Assembly (NCBI GenBank): GCA_020072655.1
Contig: JAIQGH010000064.1
Span: 1 to 37,313 of the forward strand
Reading direction: 5' to 3'
Source of the DNA: Terriglobia bacterium
Lineage (GTDB): Bacteria; Acidobacteriota; Terriglobia; UBA7540
Length of the DNA stretch: 37,313 nucleotides
The notes beneath the pieces are model-generated. The model made no database searches and had not been told where the DNA came from. It worked only from the letters and a program-made list of their open reading frames with translations. Of the stretch, positions 1 through 16,891 are shown piece after piece. Position 1 is the stretch's first letter. Each line of letters begins with the position of its first letter. Made by a program: the position numbers and the translations under genes.

Positions 1-1472
1 GGTCGGTGCTGGCCGATTCTCAGCACGACCCGGAAACGATGGAGAATCACGGTAATCGGCCGGAGGTCCTGGAGGCGCACCGCAGCGGGCAAGGAGCGGC
101 GATCCGGCACAGCGCTACACTCAACCACGACCTCTGCTACCTGGCAATGACGTTTGCTTACGACGGCAAGCCCGGCCACATCCTGCGCTTGGCCGTACCT
201 CTCGAAGATGTGGACGCGGCGATCGCCGCCGTCCGCTGGAGGATCCTCGGGGCTTCGGTGGCTGCGGCGTTGGTGGCGCTGATCGTCGCCTACTTCTTCT
301 CCCGCTCTTTCACCCACCGCATCAGCCGCCTGCGAGCGTTTGCCGAGGGGCTGGTGGATGCCCGCCTTCCGGCGGGCGGCCTGGCGGCGGATGCGGAGGA
401 CGAACTCGGCTCGCTGGCGCGCTCGCTTGACCGCACGGCGACGCAGCTCCGCGAGCTGGTGGACGGCCTGAGCCTGGAATCGGCGGACAACGAGTTGCGC
501 GTTACCTTCTGCAACCAAGCCTTCGCGCGCGCCGTGGGGCGAAGCGGCGACGTCCCTCAGCGGCTGCCCCTGCTCGAATTGGTCCGCGATCCGGACTTGC
601 TGGACATGCTCACGCTCGTGCTGGCCTCCGGCAAATCCGAGAAGCGTCGCCTGGAACTGGCCTCTGCGGTGGGGCGGACCTTCGAGGTGCAGGCCACGCC
701 CCTCCCCGTCACGCCCCACCGCGGAGCCATCGCTATCCTCTATGACATCACGGACCTCGAACGGCTGGAACGCGTGCGGAAGGACTTCGTGGCCAATGTC
801 TCGCACGAACTCCGGACGCCCCTCACTGCGATCCGAGGCTATGCGGAGACGCTGCTCGAGGGCGCGCTGGAAGATCCGGAGAATAACCGCCGGTTTCTCG
901 AAATCATTAAGGCGCACGCCATCCGCCTCAACAACATCGCCTCGGACCTGCTGGTGCTTTCGGAACTTGAGTCCGGCAAGCCCGGCGCGGAGCTAGGAAG
1001 GGTCTCCGTGCGCGGCGCGCTCGAAACCGCACTGCATACGGTCGAGTCTGAGGCCCGGTTGCGGGGGGTCGCGGTCTACTGCGCGAAGGTCGAAGACGCC
1101 GAAGTAATGGGCGATAAGGTCCGCCTCGAGCAAGCGCTGATTAATCTGCTCGACAACGCTGTGAAGTTCAACCGGCCGGACGGGGAAGTTCACGTCGATG
1201 TCCTGCGCGCCGACGCGCACGTCCGGATCGTTATTGCCGACTCAGGGATCGGCATTCCTTCGGGAGACTTATCCCGCATCTTTGAGCGCTTCTACCGTGT
1301 GGACAAAGCACGCTCCCGCGAGGTGGGGGGCACCGGTCTGGGGCTTTCCATCGTCAAGCACGTCGTCGAGCGCATGGGCGGCTCGGTGTCGGTAGAGAGC
1401 AAGTTGGGCAAAGGGTCCACATTCACTGTGGTCTTGCCCCGGATAGAAAATGCAGTCTCAGTTCACGCCTGA
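1..1472 (+). CDS. phoR: PhoR-like sensor histidine kinase, 5'-truncated by window edge
   Basis: This is a membrane histidine kinase that probably senses phosphate status through Pst/PhoU and phosphorylates a PhoB-type regulator lying outside the window. The open frame runs off the left edge, and the GTG at 6 is unlikely to be the start because it falls inside the periplasmic sensor domain (ADSQHDPETMEN). In order there are: the end of the periplasmic domain, a TM segment at about residues 80-97, a HAMP region, a PAS region with FCNQAFARAVG, the H-box VSHELRTPL with phospho-acceptor His near residue 267, the N-box (NLLDNAVKF), and the G boxes (ADSGIGIP, GGTGLGLSI). The family is strongly supported. 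The PhoR assignment rests on the neighbouring Pho boxes and the pst operon. The join between HAMP and PAS (LSLESADNELRV) looks about 18 residues shorter than in relatives I remember, as if the first PAS elements were lost in frame. Confidence 0.88.
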   Translation, partial: SVLADSQHDPETMENHGNRPEVLEAHRSGQGAAIRHSATLNHDLCYLAMTFAYDGKPGHILRLAVPLEDVDAAIAAVRWRILGASVAAALVALIVAYFFSRSFTHRISRLRAFAEGLVDARLPAGGLAADAEDELGSLARSLDRTATQLRELVDGLSLESADNELRVTFCNQAFARAVGRSGDVPQRLPLLELVRDPDLLDMLTLVLASGKSEKRRLELASAVGRTFEVQATPLPVTPHRGAIAILYDITDLERLERVRKDFVANVSHELRTPLTAIRGYAETLLEGALEDPENNRRFLEIIKAHAIRLNNIASDLLVLSELESGKPGAELGRVSVRGALETALHTVESEARLRGVAVYCAKVEDAEVMGDKVRLEQALINLLDNAVKFNRPDGEVHVDVLRADAHVRIVIADSGIGIPSGDLSRIFERFYRVDKARSREVGGTGLGLSIVKHVVERMGGSVSVESKLGKGSTFTVVLPRIENAVSVHA

Positions 1473-1489
1473 CAGAATCTCCCTGTTCG

Positions 1490-1540
1490 CTTAACCGAAG
1501 CTTAACCTTTCCTTCACACGCCTTGCACAAACCTGTAGCA
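1490..1540 (+). promoter_or_regulatory. Probable Pho box, upstream of small membrane protein A
   Basis: Repeats of 7 bp occur with a strict 11-bp period: CTTAACC at 1490, CTTAACC at 1501, CTTCACA at 1512, TTGCACA at 1523 and a weaker TGTAGCA at 1534. This 7+4 layout is that of PhoB direct-repeat boxes. The first ATG downstream is at 1557, and TATAT just before it could be part of a -10 element. Binding by PhoB is inferred from the repeat form and from a matching site before pstS. Confidence 0.75.
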
Positions 1541-1556
1541 CCCTGCTAACTGGTAT

Positions 1557-1829
1557 ATGAGCCTTCAGCTGGCTCAAAGCGGTGAGGTCATCCTGGCCGC
1601 AGCCCTGCTGGCCATCGTCCTTTGGGCCGTGTGGTGCCAGCTCCGCAGCCCCCGCGAGGATCCGAAATTCGCTCTCTGGATGGCGTTACTGGCGGAACTC
1701 CCTCACAATGATGCTGGTGCGAGGGAGGCCCCTTTTCACGACCCCGCGCACTCCCCTTCCTCGGCCACGGAGCAAGACGTACACAATCGCAGCGAGCAGG
1801 CGGGCTTGGTAGCGCACATGAAAGGATGA
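1557..1829 (+). CDS. Small single-TM protein A (90 aa), putative Pho-regulon member
   Basis: This 90-residue protein is of unknown function. An N-terminal hydrophobic helix (about residues 11-27, VILAAALLAIVLWAVW) is followed by a basic stretch and then the element DPKFALWMALLAELP, after which the tail is hydrophilic and probably disordered. The next small gene (2134-2379) has the same plan and a matching DPRRAFLLAALHDLP element, so the two look paralogous. There is no clear Shine-Dalgarno. The start follows a Pho box by only 17-28 bp, so the transcript may be leaderless or short-leadered. It is probably expressed under phosphate starvation. A regulator or accessory of the PhoR/Pst membrane complex is possible, but nothing in the sequence shows that directly. 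Confidence 0.6.
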   Translation: MSLQLAQSGEVILAAALLAIVLWAVWCQLRSPREDPKFALWMALLAELPHNDAGAREAPFHDPAHSPSSATEQDVHNRSEQAGLVAHMKG

Positions 1830-2070
1830 GCGCTGGTTTTCCGAGTCACATCTCTCCGGCAGCGCTGAAGCTCATCGGCGAAATCGTCACCTTAGCCTTC
1901 AGCGGCTCCGAATACTGGCCCTCCATCCAAGGACGCCGACCGTCCAGTCGTGCGGTGCGCCCACACCGCATGGGGAATCGGCAGGGTCGTCAACCACAAG
2001 GCATCCGGACGCCGCTTCGACTTGGCCCCGCCACCCTGCGGAGCTAGTGCCCCCAGCCCGCTCCCCCAAA
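1830..2070. other. Gap between the two small membrane-protein genes
   Basis: A 73-codon frame at 1826-2047 overlaps the stop of the preceding gene by ATGA. Its product is basic and low-complexity, with no recognisable domain, so I do not call it a gene. Nothing else is convincing until the Pho box at 2071. Confidence 0.5.
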
Positions 2071-2110
2071 GTTAACCGGACTTTTATGGACCCGTCATCA
2101 CGAGTCAATA
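2071..2110 (+). promoter_or_regulatory. Probable Pho box, upstream of small membrane protein B
   Basis: Repeats with an 11-bp period are GTTAACC at 2071, TTTTATG at 2082, CGTCATC at 2093 and GTCAATA at 2104. The downstream ATG is at 2134. The arrangement matches the sites at 1490, 2999 and 12516, though individual units are more diverged. Confidence 0.68.
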
Positions 2111-2133
2111 CGCCCCAGGCAGACTGGTGTCCG

Positions 2134-2379
2134 ATGATAAGCATCGAGTTTCAATTGTTGGTGCTAGCTGGACTTCTGATAGTACTGGCGGCATTGGTGC
2201 TGGGGCTCGCCGGCAGAAGAAGGACGTCGGATCCAAGGAGGGCATTCCTTCTCGCTGCTTTGCACGACCTCCCTGGAGGGAGCGAGAAGGCAAAGGCACA
2301 CGAGAGCGCGTCCGGAAGTGCCGACTCCGTTGCCGCTGATAGCATGCCCGGACCGCGGAGCTCCGACTTCTTTGCGTAA
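2134..2379 (+). CDS. Small single-TM protein B (81 aa), paralog of protein A
   Basis: This is an unknown protein of 81 residues. I chose ATG 2134 because the in-frame codons upstream lie across the Pho box. A hydrophobic helix (about residues 6-26, LLVLAGLLIVLAALVLGLAG) is followed by RRRTS and then DPRRAFLLAALHDLP. Over the 15 residues from DP to LP it shares 7 identities with protein A plus several conservative changes. The tail is rich in Ser, Ala and charged residues. The predicted topology is a short periplasmic N terminus, one TM helix and a cytoplasmic amphipathic segment with tail. It has its own Pho box rather than reading through from protein A, which argues that both are real and separately controlled. 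Confidence 0.62.
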   Translation: MISIEFQLLVLAGLLIVLAALVLGLAGRRRTSDPRRAFLLAALHDLPGGSEKAKAHESASGSADSVAADSMPGPRSSDFFA

Positions 2380-2502
2380 CCTCAAAACGAGCTTGGCGAG
2401 CCTAGTTGTGTTACCTCGATGCGGGTTCGGCGAGGCACGCTCAGTCCGCCGCTGAGTCCATAGAACCCCTGGAGTTCGTCTCCGGGCCTGAAAGGAGTCG
2501 CT

Positions 2503-3003
2503 ATGGTCGAAATGACTTGGGCCCTTCTGGTTTGTGACGGAAATCAAGTGTTTGAGCCGTTGAAACTGATCCTGCATAATCAATGTATTACGACCCGAGT
2601 CGCAAAGAGCTGCGGAGAGGCGTTACTTTTGCTCTGGGGTAAGCAGCCTCCGCACTTGGTGTTTACCGATGTTCACCTGACGGATGGGAATTGGACCGAC
2701 GTGCTCTCCCTGGCAGACAAGAGCTCGCTGCCCATCAACGTCATCGTAGTGTCGCGCCTGATGGATGTGAAGCTCTACATCGACGCGATGCAGCGGGGCG
2801 CATTTGACTTCATCTCGCCGCCCTTCGAGGGTCCTGACGTGGCCCATGTCGTGCGGTGCGCAACGCAAAACATTCTGCGGCGCCGATTAGCTCTTGTTAA
2901 GTCCACGGATAGCAAGCCTATCCCCGCTGCCCGCACCGAGTGGCAACAAGCCGTCATTTCGGGCTTGACGGCCATCAGTTCTCCGGCCGATCCCGACCCT
3001 TAA
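2503..3003 (+). CDS. Stand-alone degenerate response-regulator receiver protein
   Basis: This 166-residue protein has one CheY-like receiver domain (about 6-125) and a short unstructured C-terminal tail, with no output domain. The phospho-acceptor Asp is present (VFTDVHL, D56) and the Ser/Thr switch position is S84 (VIVVSRL). The acidic pocket is reduced to a single Asp (VCDGN, D12), and the invariant Lys of the usual KP(F/L) motif is replaced (DFISPPF, Pro at the Lys position). Phosphorylation chemistry is therefore likely impaired, and it may act as a pseudo-receiver or phosphate sink. A good AAGGAG ribosome site precedes the ATG. It lies between the Pho-box small genes and the Pho-box porin, so a role in phosphate signalling is plausible but unproven. 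Confidence 0.8.
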   Translation: MVEMTWALLVCDGNQVFEPLKLILHNQCITTRVAKSCGEALLLLWGKQPPHLVFTDVHLTDGNWTDVLSLADKSSLPINVIVVSRLMDVKLYIDAMQRGAFDFISPPFEGPDVAHVVRCATQNILRRRLALVKSTDSKPIPAARTEWQQAVISGLTAISSPADPDP

Positions 3004-3049
3004 CCGAACTTTCATCATCGATTCATCTCGATTTAACCGGCTGCGGTCA
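2999..3049 (+). promoter_or_regulatory. Probable Pho box, upstream of the porin gene
   Basis: This site overlaps the stop codon of the receiver gene. Units with an 11-bp period are CTTAACC at 2999, TTTCATC at 3010, ATTCATC at 3021, TTTAACC at 3032 and a weaker GCGGTCA at 3043. Four good units in phase make this one of the clearest sites in the window. Confidence 0.78.
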
Positions 3050-3098
3050 AACTGAAGGGCTTCCCAGATGAACAACCGACCTGAAATATACCTCGTCG

Positions 3099-3123
3099 AC
3101 CTCGCCGAAAGGCACGGCGAGGT
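3099..3123 (+). promoter_or_regulatory. Hairpin in the porin 5' leader
   Basis: A perfect 9-bp stem (ACCTCGCCG with CGGCGAGGT) closes a 7-nt loop between the Pho box and the porin ribosome site, which is AAGGAGCG starting near 3138. A stable leader hairpin this close to the start could affect mRNA stability or translation of an abundant outer-membrane protein. Confidence 0.5.
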
Positions 3124-3148
3124 GTCGAACATCCAAAAGGAGCGAATA

Positions 3149-4942
3149 ATGCAGATGAAAAGCAGGACGTACCGACTTGCCTGGAGTTCATTCATCCTGG
3201 TCATGTCGCTGGCGGCGAGCCCCCTCGCGGCAGCCGCCCGACCTGGTGAGGAACGGGCGGTCGTGGCAAGTCCCGTGAATTCCGCAAACGCGGCCCCGGA
3301 CAGTACACCGGCGAAGGCGGCCTCGCCGCAACCGGACGATGTAGCCCTCCTCAAGCAGCAGGTGGCCTTTCAGCAGAAGCAGATCGAGCGGCTGAATTCC
3401 GCGCTTGAAGAGCAGAAGCGCAAGCTTGAACAAGTCCTCCAGAACCCCCAGGGGCCAACCCTGCAGGCTCCGAACCTTGGGCAAGTCGCGAGCATCGACC
3501 CGGTGATTCCCAAGAGCGCATCGAAAGCGGAGAGGGCTTCCGCAACGCTTGCGGCCGCACCTTCGACAGCCCCGGCAGCCAATCCGGCGGCGGCGCCGGA
3601 CCCGGCGCCCGTGCAGTTTCACATCGGCACCGCCTATATCACCCCGGTGGGATTCATGGATTTTACGAGCGTCTGGCGTGACCACAACGCGGGCACCGGC
3701 ATCGGGACGAATTTCGCTGGCATTCCGTACGGCAATGTCTTCCAGAACAACCTGAGCGAAGTCCGCTTTAGCATGCAAAACTCCCGCATCGGCTTCCGCG
3801 TGGATGCGGACGTAAAAGGCGCTCACGTGCTCGGTTATATGGAGGCCGACTTCCTGGGGAATAACCCCGGAAACGTCGTCGTGAGCAGCAACAGCAATAC
3901 GATGCGCTCGCGGTTGTACTGGGTCGACGTACGGAGAGGCTCATGGGAAGTGCTGGGCGGCCAGACCTGGAGCTTGATTACTCCGGGCCGTGCTGGCCTT
4001 TCACCGCTCCCCGGCGACATCTTCTTCACCCAAAACATGGACGTCAATTACCAACTCGGCTTGTTCTGGGGACGCATCCCGGAATTCCGGGTCGTTTACC
4101 ACCACCCCTCGAACAAAGTGCACTTCGCGGTTGCTCTCGACAGCCCGGAGCAGTACGTGGGAGGTTCGGCAGGCGGCAGCCTCATTACCATCCCGTCCAC
4201 GCTCAACAGCGCCTATTCGAGCGAACTGGACACCGGCAGCAGCGGCACCGCCGTCCCGAACGTTGCTCCCGACGTGATTGCGAAGCTCACTCTGGAACCC
4301 TCCAAGAAGGTCCACTTCGAGATTGGAGGGATTGAGCGCAATTTCAAGCTCTGGAATCCGGCGAATTCGACCAACTATTCGGCAGTCGGTGGTGGGGGCT
4401 TCCTGAATGTGAATTTTGAACTTTTCAAGGGCTTCCGCGTGCTGACGAACAATTTCGTGAGCGATGGTGGCGGCCGATACATCTTCGGTCAGGCCCCCGA
4501 CCTAATCGTAAAAGGGGACGGCAGCCCCTCCCTGGTCCATGCCGATTCCACGGTTTCGGGCATCGAGTACACGCACAAGAGTAGTGTGATTTACGCCTAC
4601 TATGGCGGCCTTTACGTCGGGCGGAATTCCACCATTGTCCCCGTGACCACCACTTCCGGTACCCCGCCCGTCACCACGACCAAGCTGACCCCCTTCGGTT
4701 ACGGGTACACCGGTTCGCCCTCCGGCCAGAACCGGGCCGTCCAGGAGGGCACCTTCGGTATCATCCAGACTTTCTGGAAAGATGCCAGATACGGCGCGCT
4801 CAGCTTGATCACTCAGTATTCGTACCTGACCCGGAACCCGTGGTATATCGCAACCGGACAACCGAAAGACGCGCATCTAAACATGGTGTTCCTCGACCTG
4901 CGTTATACGCTGCCAGGGTCCGCGCCAACCCTAGGGAAGTAG
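3149..4942 (+). CDS. Outer-membrane porin, coiled-coil N terminus (DcaP-like), probably Pho-regulated
   Basis: This 597-residue secreted protein starts at ATG 3149, chosen because AAGGAGCG lies just before it and a signal peptide (residues 1-30, ending SPLAAAA) follows directly. An earlier in-frame ATG at 3068 would place the leader hairpin inside the gene. After the signal comes a coiled coil (about 63-98, LLKQQVAFQQKQIERLNSAL), an Ala/Pro-rich linker, and from about residue 155 a long alternating beta-strand region typical of a 16- to 18-stranded barrel, ending near an aromatic strand (FLDLRYTL). This plan resembles DcaP-type trimeric porins, in which the coiled coil extends into the periplasm. 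The Pho box suggests a role like that of OprP/OprO in phosphate or phosphoester uptake. That function is inferred from position only. Confidence 0.8.
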   Translation: MQMKSRTYRLAWSSFILVMSLAASPLAAAARPGEERAVVASPVNSANAAPDSTPAKAASPQPDDVALLKQQVAFQQKQIERLNSALEEQKRKLEQVLQNPQGPTLQAPNLGQVASIDPVIPKSASKAERASATLAAAPSTAPAANPAAAPDPAPVQFHIGTAYITPVGFMDFTSVWRDHNAGTGIGTNFAGIPYGNVFQNNLSEVRFSMQNSRIGFRVDADVKGAHVLGYMEADFLGNNPGNVVVSSNSNTMRSRLYWVDVRRGSWEVLGGQTWSLITPGRAGLSPLPGDIFFTQNMDVNYQLGLFWGRIPEFRVVYHHPSNKVHFAVALDSPEQYVGGSAGGSLITIPSTLNSAYSSELDTGSSGTAVPNVAPDVIAKLTLEPSKKVHFEIGGIERNFKLWNPANSTNYSAVGGGGFLNVNFELFKGFRVLTNNFVSDGGGRYIFGQAPDLIVKGDGSPSLVHADSTVSGIEYTHKSSVIYAYYGGLYVGRNSTIVPVTTTSGTPPVTTTKLTPFGYGYTGSPSGQNRAVQEGTFGIIQTFWKDARYGALSLITQYSYLTRNPWYIATGQPKDAHLNMVFLDLRYTLPGSAPTLGK

Positions 4943-5742: not shown

Positions 5743-6483
5743 TTGAAAAGTACAGCAACAGGGATTCAGTTGGAGGAGCTGCGTCGGTTCGACACCTGCA
5801 CGATTGCCGACGCCATCGAGGCGTTCGGTATCCGGATGCGCAACGAAGGGTTCGCGACCGCGGGTTTTCGGTGTCTGTTCAAGGCCTTTCCGCCCATGGT
5901 TGGCTATGCGGCAACCTGTCGGGTCCGTTCCGCTGCTCCGCCCATCGTGGGGAGCGGCTACGTCGAGCGCGCTGATTGGTACAAGTACATTACAGGCATT
6001 CCGGCGCCGCGCGTGGTCGTCATCCAGGATCTCGATGAGCAACCGGGCACGGGCGCGTTCCTGGGGCGGGTGCATGTCAACATCCTCTTAGCTTTGCAGT
6101 GTGTGGGCGGGGTAACCAACGGCGCCGCGCGCGAACTGCCGGGGATCGAGGCGAGCGGCTTTCAGGTCTTTGCCGGTCGCCTTGCCATCTCCCGCGCCTA
6201 CGTGCACATCGTGGACTATGGGCTGCCAGTGGAAGTGGGCCACCTGAGAATCCGGCCCGGCGAACTGATCCACGGTGACCGCCACGGCATCCTGACTATC
6301 CCGCCGGACATTGCAGGCCAACTCCCGGAAGTCGCGAACAGAATTCTCGAAAAGAAGCAGCAGGTGATCGAATTGAGCCAGCAGCCGAAGGTGTCGCTCC
6401 AAGAACTGGAGCAGGGACTGGAGGAATTGCACAACCTCACTGCCAACCGAAATAGCAATGAAGTACCCCAGAGGAAACCATGA
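5743..6483 (+). CDS. RraA-like family protein (aldolase/demethylmenaquinone-methyltransferase-like fold)
   Basis: This 246-residue protein belongs to the RraA/HMG-aldolase superfamily. Members either cleave 4-hydroxy-4-methyl-2-oxoglutarate or related acids, or, as in E. coli RraA, bind RNase E. Family signatures are the N-terminal TCTIADAIEAFG, the central GGVTNGAARELPGIEASGF and the C-terminal LIHGDRHGILTIP. The metal-binding GxxRD motif reads GAARE, with R130 and E131, so Asp is replaced by Glu. The start is uncertain: TTG 5743 gives a full-length protein but has a weak ribosome site. Its stop overlaps the ATG of the RND adaptor (ATGA), so the two are translationally coupled. That makes it the first gene of the efflux operon, an unusual partner for an RND pump. 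Confidence 0.75.
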   Translation: MKSTATGIQLEELRRFDTCTIADAIEAFGIRMRNEGFATAGFRCLFKAFPPMVGYAATCRVRSAAPPIVGSGYVERADWYKYITGIPAPRVVVIQDLDEQPGTGAFLGRVHVNILLALQCVGGVTNGAARELPGIEASGFQVFAGRLAISRAYVHIVDYGLPVEVGHLRIRPGELIHGDRHGILTIPPDIAGQLPEVANRILEKKQQVIELSQQPKVSLQELEQGLEELHNLTANRNSNEVPQRKP

Positions 6484-7736
6484 AGAATAAGAGTCGCATC
6501 GCCCGCAACTGGCTGACAGCCGCCTGGATGGGTCTCGGGATCCTACAGCTTGCCTTGCTTACCTCCTGCGGCCGTGAGACCGACGGGGAGCCCAGTACCG
6601 ACCCGTCACAGGTCGTAACAGCGGAGGTGGTGAAGGCCACACGCAAAGACCTCTCCAACAATCTGGAGATCGCCTCCGAGTTCGAGCCCTTTCAAGAAAT
6701 CGACGTTCACGCGAAAGTCTCGGGCTATGTCCAGAAGCTCTATGTCGATTGGGGAAGTCACGTGCAGAGGGGACGACTCCTGGCGAGTCTTGAGGTTCCC
6801 GAACTCGAAGACCAGATCAAACAAGATCAGGCCGCCCTGAGCCGAAGTGAGCAGAACCTGACCCGTGCCAAGGAGGAAGTGCGGCGGGCGGAATCCGCGC
6901 ACGCGGTCGCGCATATCACTTTCGCGCGCTTAAACGGAGTCGCCCAAACCCGCCCCGACCTCGTGGCGCAGGAGGAAATTGACGTCGCCCAAGGCAAAGA
7001 CAGCGAAGACGAGGCACAAGTTTCAGCGGCCAAGGCTGCCCTGGCGGCGGCCAGCGAGGAACGGGACGTCGCCCGGGCTTCACTCGCCAAGGACGAAACC
7101 CTCTACGCGTACTCGCGCATTACCGCTCCCTTCACGGGCGTCGTCACGAAGCTTTATGCCTATACGGGAGCGTTGCTTCCCGCCGGAACTTCGACCAGCA
7201 CGTCAGGACTGCCCTTGCTGAGGCTCTCCCAGAATGACCTGCTGCGACTGGTAATCCCCCTGCCCGAGAGCGTGGTCCCTAAGATTCATGTCGGAAACCC
7301 CATCCAGGTGCGGGTTTCGGCTCTGAACACGGCGTTCGCGGGGACGGTCGTCCGCTTCTCGGGAGAGGTGGATGAGGCCACGCGGACGATGCACACGGAA
7401 GTGGACGTTCCGAATCCGGACTACGTCTTGGTGCCGGGGATGTACGCCTATGCCGAAATCCCTGTTGATCACAAGCCGGGCGCACTGGCCGTACCGATTC
7501 AAGCCTGCGCCGCCTCGACCACCCCCGGCCAAGGCAGGGTGCTGGTGGTGAACGCCCAAGGTCAGATCGAGCAGCGACACGTCACAACGGGGGTCCAAAC
7601 CGCACAAAACGTCGAAATCCTCTCGGGTATCAAGGAAGGCGAGTTAGTGGTGGCGGGCAATCAGGGCCGATACCGTGCTGGCGAAAGCGTCCGTCCGGTG
7701 AAGGCCGCCCTGGCGAACCCGCAGGGAGAACAGTAA
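6480..7736 (+). CDS. RND efflux periplasmic adaptor lipoprotein (membrane fusion protein)
   Basis: This 418-residue adaptor of a tripartite RND pump bridges the inner-membrane permease and the TolC-type channel. A lipobox (LALLTSC, Cys30) indicates a lipoprotein anchored to a membrane in the periplasm. The lipoyl half-motif (HAKVSGYVQKLYVDWGSHV, about 79-97), an alpha-helical hairpin (about 115-200), the second lipoyl half (APFTGVV), the beta-barrel and the membrane-proximal domain (LSGIKEGELVVAGNQGRYRAG) are all present. Overlaps on both sides (ATGA with the RraA-like gene, TAATG with the permease) show tight coupling in one operon. The substrate cannot be told from sequence. Confidence 0.9.
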   Translation: MKNKSRIARNWLTAAWMGLGILQLALLTSCGRETDGEPSTDPSQVVTAEVVKATRKDLSNNLEIASEFEPFQEIDVHAKVSGYVQKLYVDWGSHVQRGRLLASLEVPELEDQIKQDQAALSRSEQNLTRAKEEVRRAESAHAVAHITFARLNGVAQTRPDLVAQEEIDVAQGKDSEDEAQVSAAKAALAAASEERDVARASLAKDETLYAYSRITAPFTGVVTKLYAYTGALLPAGTSTSTSGLPLLRLSQNDLLRLVIPLPESVVPKIHVGNPIQVRVSALNTAFAGTVVRFSGEVDEATRTMHTEVDVPNPDYVLVPGMYAYAEIPVDHKPGALAVPIQACAASTTPGQGRVLVVNAQGQIEQRHVTTGVQTAQNVEILSGIKEGELVVAGNQGRYRAGESVRPVKAALANPQGEQ

Positions 7737-8668
7737 TGCCAAAGTTTGCGTTGCGTTACCCCTACTTCATCATCGTGGTTTGCCTCATCGTTGCGGTGGT
7801 TGGCGTGACCAGCTTGGTACGCATGCCGGTCGATCTGTTCCCGACGATCAACATTCCGGAAGTCGTCGTAGCCACCTTTTACAATGGCATGCCGCCTGAA
7901 GATATCGAGACGGAAATCACCGGCCGCTTCGAACGGTTTTTCACCCTCGGCGCCGGGATCGACCACATGGAATCCCGTTCGCTGCCCGGCGCCAGCATCA
8001 TCAAAATCTACTTTCGGCCGGGGACGAGTGCAGACTCAGATGTGGACGAGATCTCGAACTTGGCGATGGCCGACTTGCGGCGCCTCCCCCCAGGCACCCT
8101 CCCGCCGGTGGTAATGAAGTTCGACGCCTCCAGCCTCCCGGTCTGCCTGATCACTTTGAAAGGCCAAGGCCTTAACGAGACGCAACTGCGGGACCTGGGC
8201 CAGTTCGCGGTTCGGAACCAGGTTGCCACCGCGCCGGGCGCCTCCGTGCCGCCACCCTTCGGCGGAAAGTACCGGCAGATCATGGTGTACGTCGATCCGT
8301 TGAAGTTGCAGGCGAACGGGTTGAGTCCGATGGACGTCGTGCGAGCGGTGAACAACGCTAATCTGATCCTCCCCGCCGGCGACGCCAAGATCGGGCCTTA
8401 TGATTACAACATCTACACGAATAGCCAGATCCAGGATGTCGTCGACATTAACAGCGTCCCCTTAAAGACGGTGGGGGAACGGTCGGTCACGGTCGGGGAC
8501 GTGGGTCGGGCGGAAGACGCCTCAACGATTCAGACGAACATTGTCAGGGTCGATGGTCAGAAGTCCGTTTACCTGCCCATTATGAAGCAGGGCGGCGATA
8601 CGAACACCATCTCCGTCGTGAATACCGTCAAAGCGGTGGTTTCCCATCTCTATGACGTTCCGGAATAA
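7736..8668 (+). CDS. RND permease, N-terminal piece, ended by premature in-frame TAA
   Basis: These 310 residues correspond to the first third of an HAE1-type RND pump of about 1050 residues. Present are TM1 (YFIIVVCLIVAVVGVTSL), the PN1 and PN2 porter subdomains, and the start of the region leading to TM2. The product stops at TAA 8666-8668 after LYDVPE. The same reading frame continues without a shift into the rest of the permease at 8681, so this is a nonsense codon, not a frameshift. The upstream overlap with the adaptor stop (TAATG) confirms the start. Alone this piece has only one TM helix and cannot form a pump. Confidence 0.85.
   Translation: MPKFALRYPYFIIVVCLIVAVVGVTSLVRMPVDLFPTINIPEVVVATFYNGMPPEDIETEITGRFERFFTLGAGIDHMESRSLPGASIIKIYFRPGTSADSDVDEISNLAMADLRRLPPGTLPPVVMKFDASSLPVCLITLKGQGLNETQLRDLGQFAVRNQVATAPGASVPPPFGGKYRQIMVYVDPLKLQANGLSPMDVVRAVNNANLILPAGDAKIGPYDYNIYTNSQIQDVVDINSVPLKTVGERSVTVGDVGRAEDASTIQTNIVRVDGQKSVYLPIMKQGGDTNTISVVNTVKAVVSHLYDVPE
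8666..8668 (+). other. In-frame TAA interrupting the RND permease
   Basis: Reading through this codon gives DVPE-stop-LVTRVVFDQSRF in one frame, matching the expected continuous family sequence. A single base change from several sense codons (for example TCA, CAA, GAA or AAA) would create it. It is either a true nonsense mutation, a sequence error or a recoded stop. Confidence 0.85.
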
Positions 8669-8680
8669 CTGGTAACGCGC

Positions 8681-10909
8681 GTGGTGTTCGATCAATCGCG
8701 GTTTGTCAAGACGGCCATCGGCACCCTGGTGCACGAGGGAGCGATCGGCTTATTGCTCACGGGCCTCATGGTGCTGATCTTCCTAGGGAGTCTGCGTGCC
8801 ACGGCGGCCGTCTTCCTCTCCATACCGCTTTCGGCGCTGGCCGCAATCATCCTGCTTTATTTTGGCGGCAGTTCGATCAACAGCATGGTGCTGGCAGGAT
8901 TGGCCATCGTCTTTTCGCGCTTGATTGACAACTCGGTAATCGTCCTGGAGAACATCTTTCGGCACCTGGAATTGGGGGAGCGTCCTGAGGTCGCCGCTGA
9001 GAAGGGGGGCCAGGAGGTCTCGATGGCTGTTCTGGCGGCCACGCTTACCAGTTCCGTGGTCTTTTTCCCGGTGACCTTCCTCTATGGTGTCAGCCGGTTC
9101 TTGTTTTCGGCACTGGCGCTGGCGGTGGTGCTGGCGCTGTTTGCTTCTTACTTTGTTGCCATGACGGTAGTCCCGCTCTTTTGCGCCAAATTGATCAAAG
9201 GCCACCCTGCGGGGGAAAAAGCTACTCGACCGCTGGAAGAAGCGAGCACGGAGTTTGCCCCACCCGTGAAGTCGTGGGGAAGCCGATTCAACAGTGCCTT
9301 CCACCGCCGCTTCACACAGGCACTCGATTGGTACGAAGGGCAGGTCCGGCGGGCCCTGGTCCGGCCGGTGAAAGTAGTGGCGGCCGTGACCGGAGCCTTC
9401 CTTCTGAGTCTCGCGATTTATCCTTTCCTGGGCGTGTCGTTCTTTCCCAGAACCGATGCGGGACAGTTCGTAATCAACCTGAAGGCTCCTTCCGGAACTC
9501 GTATCGAATTAAGTAATCGGCTGGTGACGCAGGTGGAGCAGATCGTGCGTGAGGTTATTCGACCGAAGGACCTCAAGCTGATTGTATCGAATATCGGCGT
9601 GATCCCGGGTTTCTCCTCAATTTACGCCAGCAACTCGGGACCCCACACGGCCACCATCCAGGTTGCCCTGACGGAGGACCACAAAGTCGGCAGTTACGAG
9701 TACATGGACCGCGTTCGGGCGCGACTGGCCTCGGAGATGCCTGAAGTCAGTGCCTTCCTTCAAACGGGAGGGCTCCAGGACGCCGTGCTGAACCAGGGGC
9801 TACCCGCCCCCATCGACGTCCAAGTGAGCGGCTCGGACCTCGAACAAAACGACAAGGTAGCCATTGACCTCGCCAATGCCATCCACCGGGTGCCAGGAGT
9901 CAGCGACGTCTATATTCCTCAAGATCTGGACTATCCGGCTCTCCGCTTGGACGTCGACCGTGTGCGCGCCAGTGAACTTGGTCTGAGCCAGAAGGAAGTG
10001 ATTGACAATGTCATCACGGCCCTCACCTCGAACGGAATGATCGCGCCGAGCTACTGGATTGATCCCAGGACAGGCAATGACTACATGCTGACCGTCCAGT
10101 ACCCGGAGCGCAGAATCAACGACCTGCTGGATGTGAAAGCCATCCCTCTGCGTGCAGCAGGTCAGAAAGAGCCGGCGCTCCTCGATGCGGTCAGCAAGGT
10201 CGCCCGCAGCGAGTCACCAACCGAGGTCGATCATTATCAGATTCAGCGGGTCATCGATGTCTATGTCACGCCGGCGGGTGAAGATCTCGGCAAGGTCGCC
10301 AGCGCCATCGACAAAATCATCGCCCGGGCGCGGCTCCCCGAAGGGCTGCGTGTCAATCTGCGGGGGATGGTGCAGGGCATGAGAGCCTCCTTCCGGAGCT
10401 TCGGGGTGGGCCTTTTGCTGTCTCTTGTGCTGTTGTACCTCATCCTGGTGGCTCAGTTCCGTTCCTTCCTCGACCCGTTCCTCATTCTGCTGGCTGTCCC
10501 GACAGGCATCATCGGCGTCCTGGTGACCCTGTTCGTCACGGGCACGACCTTGAATGTGCAGTCCCTGATGGGCATCGTCATGATGGTAGGCATCGTCGTG
10601 TCGAATAGTATCTTGATTGTGGAGTTCGCCCATCGGCTCGAAGAAGGCGCCAGCTCGATCCGTGACGCGGTGATTGCCGCTTGCCGCGTACGCCTGCGCC
10701 CGATTCTCATGACTTCGCTGGCTACCCTCGTGGGTCTGTTGCCCATGGCCTTCAAGTTGGAGGCCGGAAGCGAAGCTTACCGGCCGCTGGCGATCGCCAT
10801 CATCGGCGGCCTGACATTTTCCGTGATCTTGACAATCTTTGTCCTTCCCTCCGCCTACTTGCTCGTCTACGGGAGGAAGGAAATTCGCTCCTCAGCGAGC
10901 CAGTCCTAG
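8681..10909 (+). CDS. RND permease, C-terminal piece (in frame with the N-terminal piece)
   Basis: These 742 residues carry TM2-TM6, the second porter repeat and TM7-TM12 of the same permease. GTG 8681 is only the first possible codon after the stop, and there is no ribosome site for it. In TM4 the proton-relay motif reads RLIDNSVIVLEN, so the second Asp of the AcrB pair (D408) is Asn. In TM10 the motif is GIVVSNSILIVEF, with Ser where AcrB has K940. Such D-N-S variants occur in part of the HAE1 family, so coupling may differ from AcrB. The stop overlaps the AGGAGG ribosome site of the downstream channel gene. With the piece at 7736 it makes a full-length protein of about 1057 residues if the TAA is read. 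Confidence 0.85.
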   Translation: MVFDQSRFVKTAIGTLVHEGAIGLLLTGLMVLIFLGSLRATAAVFLSIPLSALAAIILLYFGGSSINSMVLAGLAIVFSRLIDNSVIVLENIFRHLELGERPEVAAEKGGQEVSMAVLAATLTSSVVFFPVTFLYGVSRFLFSALALAVVLALFASYFVAMTVVPLFCAKLIKGHPAGEKATRPLEEASTEFAPPVKSWGSRFNSAFHRRFTQALDWYEGQVRRALVRPVKVVAAVTGAFLLSLAIYPFLGVSFFPRTDAGQFVINLKAPSGTRIELSNRLVTQVEQIVREVIRPKDLKLIVSNIGVIPGFSSIYASNSGPHTATIQVALTEDHKVGSYEYMDRVRARLASEMPEVSAFLQTGGLQDAVLNQGLPAPIDVQVSGSDLEQNDKVAIDLANAIHRVPGVSDVYIPQDLDYPALRLDVDRVRASELGLSQKEVIDNVITALTSNGMIAPSYWIDPRTGNDYMLTVQYPERRINDLLDVKAIPLRAAGQKEPALLDAVSKVARSESPTEVDHYQIQRVIDVYVTPAGEDLGKVASAIDKIIARARLPEGLRVNLRGMVQGMRASFRSFGVGLLLSLVLLYLILVAQFRSFLDPFLILLAVPTGIIGVLVTLFVTGTTLNVQSLMGIVMMVGIVVSNSILIVEFAHRLEEGASSIRDAVIAACRVRLRPILMTSLATLVGLLPMAFKLEAGSEAYRPLAIAIIGGLTFSVILTIFVLPSAYLLVYGRKEIRSSASQS

Positions 10910-10922
10910 GAGGCACCCGATA

Positions 10923-12315: not shown

Positions 12316-12515
12316 TTCTCGGCGAAGAGCCCAGTCGAGCAATGCGGGTCTCCCACCACCAAAAGTTTCGCGCGCAGTTCATAGACGGGTAATACCCGTG
12401 TAACCGCGGATGGCCATACTCGTACCGACGTGCAATAAGACAAAATGAGCGCAGTAATGCTGAGTCCAGTTCTGTTTCCTGTTATTGAGAGCTGGGGAGG
12501 GCCTTTGCGTCCCTT
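12316..12515. other. Intergenic region before pstS
   Basis: This lies between the efflux operon and the pst Pho box. Only antisense shadow frames are present. A TACCCGTGTAACC-like stretch near 12392 weakly recalls a Pho unit but is not in phase. I see no gene. Confidence 0.5.
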
Positions 12516-12555
12516 CGTTAATGCAGCTTAACAGAGGCTTAACCTGCCTGTAACA
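12516..12555 (+). promoter_or_regulatory. Pho box upstream of pstSCAB-phoU
   Basis: Units with an 11-bp period are CGTTAAT at 12516, CTTAACA at 12527, CTTAACC at 12538 and TGTAACA at 12549. The ribosome site GAGGAGG follows at about 12574 and ATG at 12588. Because the pst operon is a standard PhoB target, this site anchors reading the other three phased-repeat sites as Pho boxes. Confidence 0.82.
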
Positions 12556-12587: not shown

Positions 12588-13628
12588 ATGAGGAAGTTCT
12601 TGGCATGCGTGACTGTTCTAGGCGCCGTCCTGTCTTTGGGGGTTGGAACGGTTGCATCAGCGCCACCATCGCCTGACGCGGCATTGATCAACGGGGCGGG
12701 GGCGACGTTTCCATACCCGATTTACTCCAAGTGGTTCGACGAATATCACAAGCTTCATGGGGATCTGCAGATCAATTACCAGTCCATTGGCTCGGGCGGG
12801 GGCATCCGCCAGCTTCAATCGGGGACCGTCGACTTTGGCGCCTCCGACATGCCTCTGAACGACCAGATGCTGAACGACTTTAAGTTTAAGGTCCTACACT
12901 TTCCGACCGTGCTCGGGGCGGTTGTCCCGACCTACAACATCCCGGGTGTGAGCCAGGAATTAAAGTTCACCCCGGAGGCGTTGGCCGGGATTTACCAGGG
13001 AAAGATCACCAAGTGGAATGACGGCGCGCTGACGAGCGCCAATCCTGGCGTAAATCTTCCCGGCGAGGACATCGTAGTGGTGCACCGTTCCGACGGCAGC
13101 GGGACGACATTTGTTTGGACGGATTATCTTTCGAAGGTCAGCCAAGATTGGGCAAACAAAGTGGGAAAGAACACTTCCGTGAATTGGCCCGTCGGTTTGG
13201 GGGGCAAGGGAAATGAAGGCGTCGCTGGCTTGGTCAAGCAGACGCCCAACTCGATCGGCTACGTTGAGCTGATTTACGCCATCCAGAACAAGCTCCCGTA
13301 TGGGAGTGTCCGGAATGCGGCAGGCGTGTTCGTCAAGGCAGAGCTTTCCAGCGTTACGGCCGCTGCGGGCTCGGTGGCTAAATCGATGCCTGCGGATTTT
13401 CGCGTTTCCATTACCAACGCGCCCGGAAAGGCGGCGTATCCGATTTGCAGCTTCACTTATCTCCTGGTTCCCGAGAGCATTCCTGAGGCGTCAAAGAGGG
13501 ACGCCATCAAGGAATTCCTCCACTGGATGCTGACGGATGGGCAGAAGGACGCTGAGCCTCTCGCTTACGCCCGCCTTCCGAAGGAAGTGGTCGACAAAGA
13601 GTTGAGGGCCATTTCCGAGATCAAATAG
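12588..13628 (+). CDS. pstS: Phosphate ABC transporter, periplasmic phosphate-binding protein PstS
   Basis: This 346-residue high-affinity phosphate-binding protein carries a signal peptide (residues 1-24, ending TVASA) and no lipobox. Phosphate-contacting elements are visible: INGAGATFPYPIYSKW at the mature N terminus, IGSGGGIRQL, VDFGASDMPL, and VHRSDGSGTTFVWTDYL, in which the RSDGSGTT loop is the classic anion site. Length and end (EFLHWMLTDGQKDAEPLAYARLP) are normal. It is the first gene of the operon, with a strong GAGGAGG ribosome site and a Pho box. One base separates it from pstC. Confidence 0.96.
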   Translation: MRKFLACVTVLGAVLSLGVGTVASAPPSPDAALINGAGATFPYPIYSKWFDEYHKLHGDLQINYQSIGSGGGIRQLQSGTVDFGASDMPLNDQMLNDFKFKVLHFPTVLGAVVPTYNIPGVSQELKFTPEALAGIYQGKITKWNDGALTSANPGVNLPGEDIVVVHRSDGSGTTFVWTDYLSKVSQDWANKVGKNTSVNWPVGLGGKGNEGVAGLVKQTPNSIGYVELIYAIQNKLPYGSVRNAAGVFVKAELSSVTAAAGSVAKSMPADFRVSITNAPGKAAYPICSFTYLLVPESIPEASKRDAIKEFLHWMLTDGQKDAEPLAYARLPKEVVDKELRAISEIK

Positions 13629-13629
13629 C

Positions 13630-14613
13630 ATGGCCAGCACAGCAGTTGCGGTCGGAGGCGCGCCCCGCCCGGGGCGGGTGCGCGCCTTCCTTTTGCGCCT
13701 TCGAAGCGGGGACGAGATCGCGCATCTCATCACCCTCATTTTCGCCTCCGCCATTTTTCTGGTCACTGTTCTGCTCGTCTTCGAGCTTTATCGGAACTCC
13801 GCCCTGGCGCGCGAAAAGTTCGGCTGGCAGTTCTTCTACTCGCGAACCTGGGATCCGGTTTTCGAACAGTTCGGGGCTTTGCCTTTCATCTTCGGCACGG
13901 TGGTGACGTCAGCGGTGGGGCTGCTGATGGCGGTCCCGCTGGGCGTGGGCGCGGCCATCTTCCTGGCGGAGATGGCCCCCGCGCGCGTTTCCGACGCGCT
14001 CACTTTTGTCATCGAACTGCTGGCGGCGGTTCCGAGTGTCATCTACGGCCTACTGGCCATCTTCACCCTGGTGCCGCTGCTACGGACCACCGTGCAGCCC
14101 TTTCTAAAGCGAACACTCGGTTTTCTTCCCCTCTTCCAAGGACCTGCCTACGGCGTGGGGTTGCTGGCTGCCGGGCTCATCCTCGCCATCATGATTGTTC
14201 CCTTTATCGTTTCGATATCGCGCGAGGTACTGCTGGCCGTCCCGGTCGAGCAGCGAGAGGCGGCGTTGGCGCTGGGCGCCACGCGCTGGGAGTCAACCTG
14301 GAAGGTCGTGGTCCCTTACGCGCGGGCCGGTATCCTGGGATCGATTTTCCTGGCGATGGCGCGCGCGCTGGGAGAAACGATGGCCGTCACCATGGTCATT
14401 GGCAACGATCCCAAAATCTCCTCCTCGTTGTTCGCGCCGGGCTATTCCATTGCCGCGGTCATCGCCAATGAATTCACGGAGGCGACTGGCGACCTTTACG
14501 TTCACGCCCTGATTGAGCTGGGCTTGGTGCTCTTTATTCTGACGATCGTTCTCAACGGCCTGGCGCGCTTGCTCATCTTGGCAACGCATCGGAAGGGGAC
14601 CGCGCATCCATGA
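13630..14613 (+). CDS. pstC: Phosphate ABC transporter permease PstC
   Basis: This 327-residue inner-membrane permease pairs with PstA to form the phosphate channel. There are six TM helices, the first at about 37-58. The cytoplasmic EAA loop that contacts PstB reads VPVEQREAALALGATRWESTW. AVPSVIYGLLAIF is typical of PstC/PstA. It begins one base after the pstS stop and overlaps pstA by ATGA. No unusual residues were seen. Confidence 0.95.
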   Translation: MASTAVAVGGAPRPGRVRAFLLRLRSGDEIAHLITLIFASAIFLVTVLLVFELYRNSALAREKFGWQFFYSRTWDPVFEQFGALPFIFGTVVTSAVGLLMAVPLGVGAAIFLAEMAPARVSDALTFVIELLAAVPSVIYGLLAIFTLVPLLRTTVQPFLKRTLGFLPLFQGPAYGVGLLAAGLILAIMIVPFIVSISREVLLAVPVEQREAALALGATRWESTWKVVVPYARAGILGSIFLAMARALGETMAVTMVIGNDPKISSSLFAPGYSIAAVIANEFTEATGDLYVHALIELGLVLFILTIVLNGLARLLILATHRKGTAHP

Positions 14614-15461
14614 ACTACCGGACGCTCTGGAGAAAATCCGTCAACGCCGTCATGTTCAGCCTGACCGGGCTTGCGACCGTCCTGACCGTCTCGGTGCTCT
14701 TTTTCATCCTCGGCTACCTGGTGTGGTACGGCGGGCGGGCCATCAATTGGGACTTCTTCACGAAGCTGCCGAAACCCGTGGGAGAGACCGGCGGCGGCAT
14801 GGCCAACGCCATCGTCGGAAGTGTCAAGCTGTTGCTCCTGGCGACCCTGACCGGAGTTCCCATCGGCTTCATGGGCGGCGTTTATCTGGCGGAGTTTGGT
14901 GGGAAAACCTTTTCGTTTCTGCTTCGGTACACGACGGACCTGCTGAACGGCGTGCCTTCAATCGTGATGGGGATCTTTGCATACACCATGGTCGTTCTCC
15001 CCATGAAGCATTTTTCAACCCTGGCCGGTGGGCTGGCGCTGGGCGTGATGATGATTCCTATCGCTGTGCGCAGCACGGAGGAATTTCTGCGCACCGTGCC
15101 GGTCACCCTGCGAGAGGGGGCTCTGGCCTTGGGAGCATGTAAATGGAAAGCCATCACGACGGTCGTGATTCCAGCGGCGATCCGGGGCATCCTGACCGGA
15201 ATCATCCTCGACCTGGCCCGCGTGGCGGGCGAGACAGCGCCTCTGCTCTTCACTGCTTTTAACAACCGATTCTGGAGTCCGGGATGGAATCAACCCACGG
15301 CGTCGCTTCCCGTCATGATCTTTACTTATGCCATAGCTCCTTATGAAGACTGGCACCGGCAGGCTTGGGCGGCAGGACTGGTTTTGTTAGGGTTGGTGTT
15401 ACTTACCAACATCACGGCACGCGTGGTGCTGGCTCGAAAACTCTCTTCGGCGGCGGGCTAA
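14610..15461 (+). CDS. pstA: Phosphate ABC transporter permease PstA
   Basis: This 283-residue second permease subunit has six TM helices and the PstA signatures LLNGVPSIVMGIFAYTM and an EAA loop RTVPVTLREGALALGACKW. It also carries RVAGETAPLLFTAFNNRFW, which is characteristic of PstA. It starts inside the pstC stop (ATGA overlap) and ends 3 bp before pstB, so the subunits are made together. Confidence 0.95.
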   Translation: MNYRTLWRKSVNAVMFSLTGLATVLTVSVLFFILGYLVWYGGRAINWDFFTKLPKPVGETGGGMANAIVGSVKLLLLATLTGVPIGFMGGVYLAEFGGKTFSFLLRYTTDLLNGVPSIVMGIFAYTMVVLPMKHFSTLAGGLALGVMMIPIAVRSTEEFLRTVPVTLREGALALGACKWKAITTVVIPAAIRGILTGIILDLARVAGETAPLLFTAFNNRFWSPGWNQPTASLPVMIFTYAIAPYEDWHRQAWAAGLVLLGLVLLTNITARVVLARKLSSAAG

Positions 15462-15464
15462 AAT

Positions 15465-16301
15465 ATGGGCGTGACTATGGACCCCCTTCTCGTAACTGCG
15501 ACGGCCGGCAAAGACCAACCGGAGAAGTCGCGGACGACACACCCTGCGAAGACACAAGCCAAGCTCCGGGTGGTCGATCTGAATTTCTATTACGGCAAAG
15601 TCCAGGCCCTGCACGCCATTAGCTTGGACATCGCGGCAAACCGCATCACGGCGCTGATTGGGCCGTCGGGATGCGGGAAGTCAACGTTCCTGCGCAGCCT
15701 GAACCGCATGCACGAGATGGTCCGCCACGCTCGTGCGGAAGGCCAAATCTTGCTGGACAACCAGAACGCGCTGGAAATGGAAGTTTCACAATTACGCCGG
15801 CGTGTGGGGATGGTCTTCCAAAAATCCAATCCCTTCCCGAAATCTATCTTCGACAATGTTGCCTACGGCTTGAGGGTGAACGGCTTGAAAGGTAAAGGGA
15901 CACTCCGGGAAGCCGTGGAACGAAGCCTAGTGCGTGCTGCCCTCTGGGATGAGGTCAAAGACAAGCTCCACAAGTCGGCTTACGCGATTTCCGGAGGTCA
16001 GCAGCAGCGGCTCTGTATCGCGCGCGCCCTGGCAGTCGATCCGGAGGTGCTGCTTCTTGACGAGCCGTGCTCAGCCCTCGACCCCATCGCCACCGCGAAG
16101 ATCGAAGAGCTTTTGTTCGAACTCAAGAACCAGTGTACCATTGTGATTGTCACCCACAACATGCAGCAGGCGGCGAGGGTGGCGGACTTCACGGGATTCT
16201 TCCTGCTGGGTGAGCTCATCGAATTCAATGAAACGGGGATCATCTTCAAGACGCCCGCAAAGAAGGAGACCGAGGACTACATCACCGGCCGCTTCGGATA
16301 A
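15465..16301 (+). CDS. pstB: Phosphate ABC transporter ATPase PstB
   Basis: This 278-residue ATP-binding subunit has a Walker A (GPSGCGKST, about 66-74), a Q-loop ([15 protein letters not shown]), the signature ISGGQQQRL (about 175-183), Walker B with catalytic Glu (LLLDEP, about 196-201), a D-loop (SALDP) and a switch His (IVTHNM). The C-terminal [10 protein letters not shown] is the usual PstB end. The N terminus carries a polar extension of about 30 residues before the domain. ATG 15465 or ATG 15477 could be the start. Phosphate uptake and, with PhoU, repression of PhoR are its known family roles. Confidence 0.95.
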
Positions 16302-16357: not shown

Positions 16358-16891
16358 ATGAAACACTTCCAAGAGGAACTCGAAGACCTCAAGAAGCGGC
16401 TGCTCGAAATGGGTGGTCTGGTGGAATCGGCGGTTTTCCGGAGTGTTCTTGCGGTGATCGACAGGGACAGCAACCAAGCGCAGGAAGTCCTGAAGAATGA
16501 AGCGCGCATCAACCAGATGGAGATCGAAATCGACGATCTCGCCACCCGCCTGCTGGTCCTCCAGCAGCCGATGGCGACCGACCTGCGGTTCCTCACCGCG
16601 GCCATCAAGATTAACAACGACCTCGAGCGCATGGGCGACCTGGCGGTGAACATCGTCGAGCGCGCGCTGGCGCTCGTGGACGATCCTGTCACGATGCCCA
16701 TGATCGACATCCCCCTGATGGCCAAGCAGACGGAGTCCATGGTGCACAAATGCCTGGACGCTTTCGTCCGGGGTGACGCCGAGCTGGCACGCAGCGTACT
16801 GCTCTCCGACGACGCGGTCGTGAACAGCAAGCACGTCCTCTTCCTTGTGCAGGGCGTCGACGTCCGCCACCACGCGGAAGTCCGACGATAG
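16358..16891 (+). CDS. phoU: PhoU-like phosphate signalling protein, internally shortened
   Basis: PhoU links the Pst transporter to PhoR and represses the Pho regulon when phosphate is plentiful. The usual protein is about 215-240 residues with two three-helix repeats, each carrying an E/DxxxD metal site. Here 177 residues remain. The first repeat is complete (LTAAIKINNDLERMGDLAVNIVERA, with E90 and D94), and the second begins normally (MVHKCLDAFVRGDAELARSVL). Then SDDAVVNSK joins directly to HVLFLVQGVDVRHHAEVR, which is the normal C-terminal end. About 42-45 residues, including the second metal motif, are absent without a frameshift. A GGAGG ribosome site precedes ATG 16358. It is last in the pst operon, 56 bp after pstB. 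Confidence 0.88.
   Translation: MKHFQEELEDLKKRLLEMGGLVESAVFRSVLAVIDRDSNQAQEVLKNEARINQMEIEIDDLATRLLVLQQPMATDLRFLTAAIKINNDLERMGDLAVNIVERALALVDDPVTMPMIDIPLMAKQTESMVHKCLDAFVRGDAELARSVLLSDDAVVNSKHVLFLVQGVDVRHHAEVRR

Follow-up and report, generated by a model that had tools for sequence, protein, structure and literature searches.

Most known examples of small membrane proteins that are encoded within a regulon and tune sensor kinases or transporters come from Enterobacteria; AcrZ, which works with AcrB, is an example of a small helix acting with a transporter. In Enterobacteria, the small single-transmembrane (TM) protein MgrB is induced by the regulon whose sensor, PhoQ, it inhibits (PMC2789325). 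Small DUF1127 proteins (the SDPs of Agrobacterium and YjiS of E. coli) bind PhoR and act on the phosphate regulon (PMC12501420), and MgtS, a small membrane protein of 31 aa, binds PitA (PMC10710835). Pseudo-receivers are defined as having the receiver fold while missing one or more of the D, DD, T and K residues (PMC12632262).

Two neighbouring genes (gene 1 and gene 2) in the window, the whole 37,313-nt stretch of Terriglobia DNA analysed here, encode proteins that are, like MgrB, small, single-TM and regulon-encoded, the last as predicted from Pho boxes, but the regulon is a different one and the proteins match no Pfam family. With the DUF1127 proteins they share small size and a tie to the phosphate regulon; unlike them, they have a TM helix and Pho boxes of their own, and are not recovered by Pfam DUF1127. 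MgtS works on a PIT phosphate transporter and one relative of the present proteins precedes a PIT gene, but there is no sequence match, a Pho box stands in place of Mg control, and most members are pst-linked. The product of the gene that follows gene 2 resembles stand-alone pseudo-receivers in lacking DD and K (PMC12632262), and differs from them in its placement in a predicted Pho-box operon, coupled to a small TM protein. We found no description of this pairing in the literature searched, and a search on Acidobacteria and Pho, whose coverage was partial, returned nothing on proteins of this kind. By analogy, the family may work like MgrB, the DUF1127 proteins or MgtS, without belonging to any of them by profile.

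Results

Two small coding genes in the window

The original prediction described twin small ORFs of 90 and 81 aa, and both are present (Table 1). Each encodes an N-terminal TM helix of ~19 hydrophobic residues, a basic patch, a short amphipathic helix, the element DPxxAxxxAxLxxLP and a low-complexity tail. Both proteins fit the element at every position; its back-translated DNA pattern has three matches in the 4.36-Mb genome, namely gene 1, gene 2 and one on another contig (G000:C136:7490-7533), compared with none for the reversed pattern, and it also matches the equivalent locus of a relative, G001. In a single BLASTP comparison the two proteins are weakly similar (29% over 45 aa, E=0.002). 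An AlphaFold model of the gene 2 product from a shallow alignment has helices at 2-28 and 34-44 followed by disorder (mean pLDDT 65).

Table 1. Features of the phosphate locus in the window (all on the + strand; half-sites separated by n4).
Feature	Position	Details
phoR-type sensor kinase	6..1472	5' end cut by contig start; HisKA/HATPase
Pho box of gene 1	1490..1529	CTTAACCgaagCTTAACCtttcCTTCACA; CTTAACC n4 CTTAACC n4 CTTCACA n4 TTGCACA; 28.3 bits, best site of window
Gene 1	1557..1829	90 aa; TM residues ~11-29; motif DPKFALWMALLAELP (1659-1703); variable tail
Pho box of gene 2	2071..2099	GTTAACCggacTTTTATGgaccCGTCATC; GTTAACC n4 TTTTATG n4 CGTCATC; 19.3 bits
Gene 2	2134..2379	81 aa; TM residues ~8-26; RRR; motif DPRRAFLLAALHDLP (2230-2274); variable tail
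Stand-alone pseudo-receiver	2503..3003	166 aa; Pfam Response_reg 4.5e-9
Pho box of porin, four half-sites	2999..3038	CTTAACC n4 TTTCATC n4 ATTCATC n4 TTTAACC; 25.5 and 25.6 bits
Porin-like outer-membrane protein	3068..4942	N-terminal coiled coil; homologues in 29/61 relatives
Pho boxes of pst operon	12377..12555	best at 12527; 26.5 and 20.1 bits
pstS, pstC, pstA, pstB	12588..16301	ORFs; homologous to pst genes of related loci
phoU	16361..16825	TIGR02135 2.6e-42; matches only positions 1-156 of 212

Gene 2 shows the substitution pattern of coding DNA: against its G001 relative, dN is 0.32 and dS 1.46, and substitutions fall 13/12/25 by codon position. The resulting dN/dS of ~0.22 is well away from the value near 1 that would have spoken against the prediction. 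Codon usage is coding-like in frame for gene 1; the signal of gene 2 is weak, yet best in frame. A further ORF at 1826-2047 (73 aa), which overlaps the gene 1 stop, was rejected as a gene for want of a convincing homologue and for its weak codon signal. No RNA element of Rfam matched in 1400-3200.

Each gene lies behind its own predicted Pho box

The claim that each gene has its own 11-bp phased site was borne out with a half-site matrix trained only on boxes of other genomes and slid over the window as triplets at 11 bp. By chance, ~0.25 sites of at least 14 bits are expected per window; the four top sites in the 37 kb were, in descending order, those of gene 1, pstS, the porin and gene 2. 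A strict three-half-site pattern had three matches genome-wide, all at this locus (gene 1 and porin), and its control had none. The gene 2 box aligns with a box in G001 (GTTAACC n4 TTTCATG n4 CGTCATC). Conversely, a matrix built from the window alone found boxes upstream of all seven members of the family outside it (see below); of 300 shuffled upstream regions, 0-3 scored as high. The 11-bp-phased PhoB half-sites that serve as the sequence criterion for the Pho regulon are thus present upstream of family members, and both genes are, by their predicted boxes, putative members of the regulon.

An unnamed family recovered by synteny and profile

Searching 60 relatives with the gene 1 protein alone gave nothing convincing, and the family appeared only through synteny combined with profiles. 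Scanning genome contigs with a receiver profile led to G001, L102 (in G003), L105 (in G017) and other loci, and small TM ORFs of the same plan lay upstream of the receivers there. A five-member profile then newly found a second G003 copy (G003b, on G003:C141; 2.9e-8) and members in G009 (1.9e-6) and G059 (8.8e-6; all E-values per genome), the three lying outside its training set. An eight-member profile added G052; across about 400 class genomes and 396 phylum genomes it gave no other convincing member. Matches at E 0.0001-0.005 in these searches were rejected as members, being TM-only and in longer ORFs.

The family so defined has nine members in seven genomes, each behind a Pho box. Seven, in six other genomes of the class, lie beyond the window: five in one bacterial family and two in one genus of another; six head pst clusters and one precedes a PIT phosphate transporter. 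Homologues at equivalent loci, syntenic with phoR, porin and pst, thus exist in related genomes; their absence would have spoken against the prediction. In leave-one-out tests, eight of the nine members rank first among 19,640 ORFs (gene 2 with E=2.6e-7), and the membership of G052 rests on its congener G059. Gene 1 itself ranks first of 19,640 at E=4e-4 vs 6e-4 for the best background, and its post-TM part alone ranks eighth; by sequence alone its membership is borderline.

The comparison also corrects the predicted plan. The conserved unit is the TM helix plus D[PA]xxxx[FL]LxxL[ML]xx[LF]P, retained in two bacterial families despite low identity, so that DPxxAxxxAxLxxLP is too narrow for the family. 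The disordered tail holds for the two window proteins, as low-complexity sequence, but it is no family feature, being absent from G059 and running into the receiver ORF in G001. Aligning the small proteins jointly with this continuous G001 ORF produced a misalignment, which was left out of modelling.

As predicted, no named family fits, since there was no Pfam, NCBIfam or PHROGs match above cut-off. Neither the products of genes 1 and 2 nor the scanned relatives matched DUF1127 (PF06568) in Pfam at E<=1, and no match to MgrB, KdpF or AcrZ-type families was found in Pfam or NCBIfam at the same threshold. We discounted a Gram_pos_anchor match of gene 2 (below cut-off; generic TM plus basic residues) and matches of the small-protein profile to PDB chains, the best of which (0.008, photosystem II X protein) covered the TM only.

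Distribution is patchy: the family occurs in 5 of ~38 genomes of one bacterial family and in one genus of another. In G061, a congener of G003, the Pho box and the receiver are retained and the small gene is missing; this locus (L203, G061:C70) adjoins DNA resembling L102, an apparent lineage loss. This patchiness and the absence in G061 indicate that the small proteins are dispensable. We conclude that, judged by profile, synteny and predicted boxes, genes 1 and 2 belong to a real, unnamed family of putative small single-pass inner-membrane proteins led by Pho boxes.

Gene neighbourhoods and the pseudo-receiver

The window kinase matches the NCBIfam models PnpS (5.5e-103) and phoR_proteo (1.9e-87), both below the curated cut-off. 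Porin homologues adjoin phoR in at least eight relatives, and the signal-peptide start of the window porin is likely near 3149. Both phoR and the Pho-box porin flank the small genes, as had been proposed, but the prediction left out the pseudo-receiver gene that follows gene 2. The pstSCAB-phoU genes lie 10 kb downstream on the same contig; because the phoU match stops at position 156, its 3' part may be frameshifted or divergent. An RND efflux triad (6480-12281) occupies the interval between porin and pstS, and porin and pst are close together in G001, G003 and G017.

In the window genome (G000), phoR is followed by the small genes, the pseudo-receiver and the porin, and pst lies 10 kb further along. 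In G009 the order is phoR, small TM gene, receiver, pst, and phoR adjacency is limited to these two genomes. G017 has small TM gene, receiver, porin, pst; at the first G003 locus (G003a) the small TM gene overlaps the receiver by 17 nt, followed by porin and pst. In G001 a barrel gene and a Pho box precede a small TM segment in frame with the receiver (252 aa), then porin, pstS and pstC. Since the G001 receiver start has a ribosome-binding site of its own, the unbroken frame may be fortuitous. G059 and G052 have the small TM gene, a wHTH-like protein, then porin and pst, and in G003b the small TM gene is followed by the PIT transporter. A small wHTH-like protein lies beside a small TM gene or upstream of a receiver at L141, L194, L202, L205 and L208.

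The 2503-3003 protein keeps the phospho-Asp and has lost the acid pair and the Lys (C/D at 12/13 and P at 109, CheY numbering); with DD and K missing, it fits the definition of a pseudo-receiver (PMC12632262). The Lys is replaced in every pseudo-receiver homologue read, and the model of the G001 homologue has a receiver fold (pLDDT about 95) that matches PDB receivers. The window gene has no Pho box of its own and is therefore probably transcribed with gene 2 as one operon. In five genomes the small ORF lies directly upstream of the pseudo-receiver, which is the commonest immediate partner of the small gene. In many genomes of the bacterial family the pseudo-receiver stands without a small TM neighbour, in some cases immediately after phoR and a Pho box. 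Stand-alone pseudo-receivers form a multi-copy family in 34 of the 121 genomes searched, represented by the window gene and loci L094, L102, L105, L206 and L214; several copies follow phoR and a Pho box directly.

Discussion

Modulation of PhoR or Pst by the small proteins, as first proposed, is plausible, and the PIT-linked copy and the pseudo-receiver widen the candidate targets to Pst, Pit, PhoU, PhoR and the pseudo-receiver itself. We tentatively favour, as a possibility somewhat short of probable, a Pho-induced membrane adaptor with its C-terminus inside, acting on a phosphate-uptake or phosphate-sensing complex with the pseudo-receiver as partner. Under low phosphate, PhoB-P would switch on the small gene, whose product would insert in the inner membrane with its C-terminus in the cytoplasm. 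This topology is suggested by the basic residues that follow the TM in most members and by the G001 frame, which runs on into a cytosolic receiver; G003b, G059 and G052 lack a positive charge on the C side. The amphipathic helix would lie on the cytoplasmic face of the membrane, docked on the complex (Pst or Pit, PhoU, PhoR). Where co-encoded, the pseudo-receiver would be recruited there by the small protein, and the pair would form a feedback arm of the regulon that tunes uptake or PhoR signalling. A partnership with the receiver cannot hold for every member, because the PIT-linked, G059 and G052 copies have no adjoining receiver. A narrower version of the adaptor, in which the small TM anchor and the phosphorylation-deficient receiver form a two-part Pho-induced module that holds a decoy receiver in place at PhoR or Pst, is clearly unlikely as it stands.

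The same unaccompanied copies, the PIT-linked one directly upstream of its transporter, could instead point to a transporter accessory subunit, whose helix would pack on Pst or Pit membrane subunits to stabilize or gate them, the receiver being a separate module. Small-protein control of PitA is documented (PMC10710835). Among the 30 PIT loci searched for adjoining small TM ORFs, however, one was found at the G003 copy only, and the receiver is the immediate neighbour in five genomes and continuous in one, so that we consider an accessory subunit rather unlikely.

In G000 and G009, Pho-box-driven genes immediately follow phoR, an arrangement that would also suit a PhoR-specific feedback peptide, in which the helix binds the TM/linker region of PhoR and switches it between kinase and phosphatase, with MgrB-PhoQ (PMC2789325) and DUF1127-PhoR (PMC12501420) as precedents. 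But phoR is not adjacent in G001, G003, G059 and G052, the proteins have no similarity to the DUF1127 or MgrB families, and the PIT-linked copy makes PhoR unlikely as sole target; such a peptide is distinctly improbable. That the ORFs make no functional proteins and are instead leader ORFs, or by-products of transcription driven by Pho, ahead of the real gene, would accord with the patchy distribution, the absence in G061, the borderline profile score of gene 1 and the weak codon usage of gene 2, but is very improbable given the substitution pattern and dN/dS of gene 2, the TM and motif kept across two bacterial families, the leave-one-out ranks and the lack of any Rfam match in the locus.

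The locus presents a family, driven by predicted Pho boxes, that leads pst and pit clusters in soil bacteria which are abundant but little studied, and that often has as its neighbour a receiver that should be hard to phosphorylate. It offers a test case for two questions, how Pst status reaches PhoR and what pseudo-receivers do. If the decoy-receiver module were true, it would be a feedback layer of phosphate sensing in Acidobacteriota not described elsewhere. More generally, the gene contexts suggest that this small single-helix family probably helps to tune phosphate uptake or sensing in soil Acidobacteriota.
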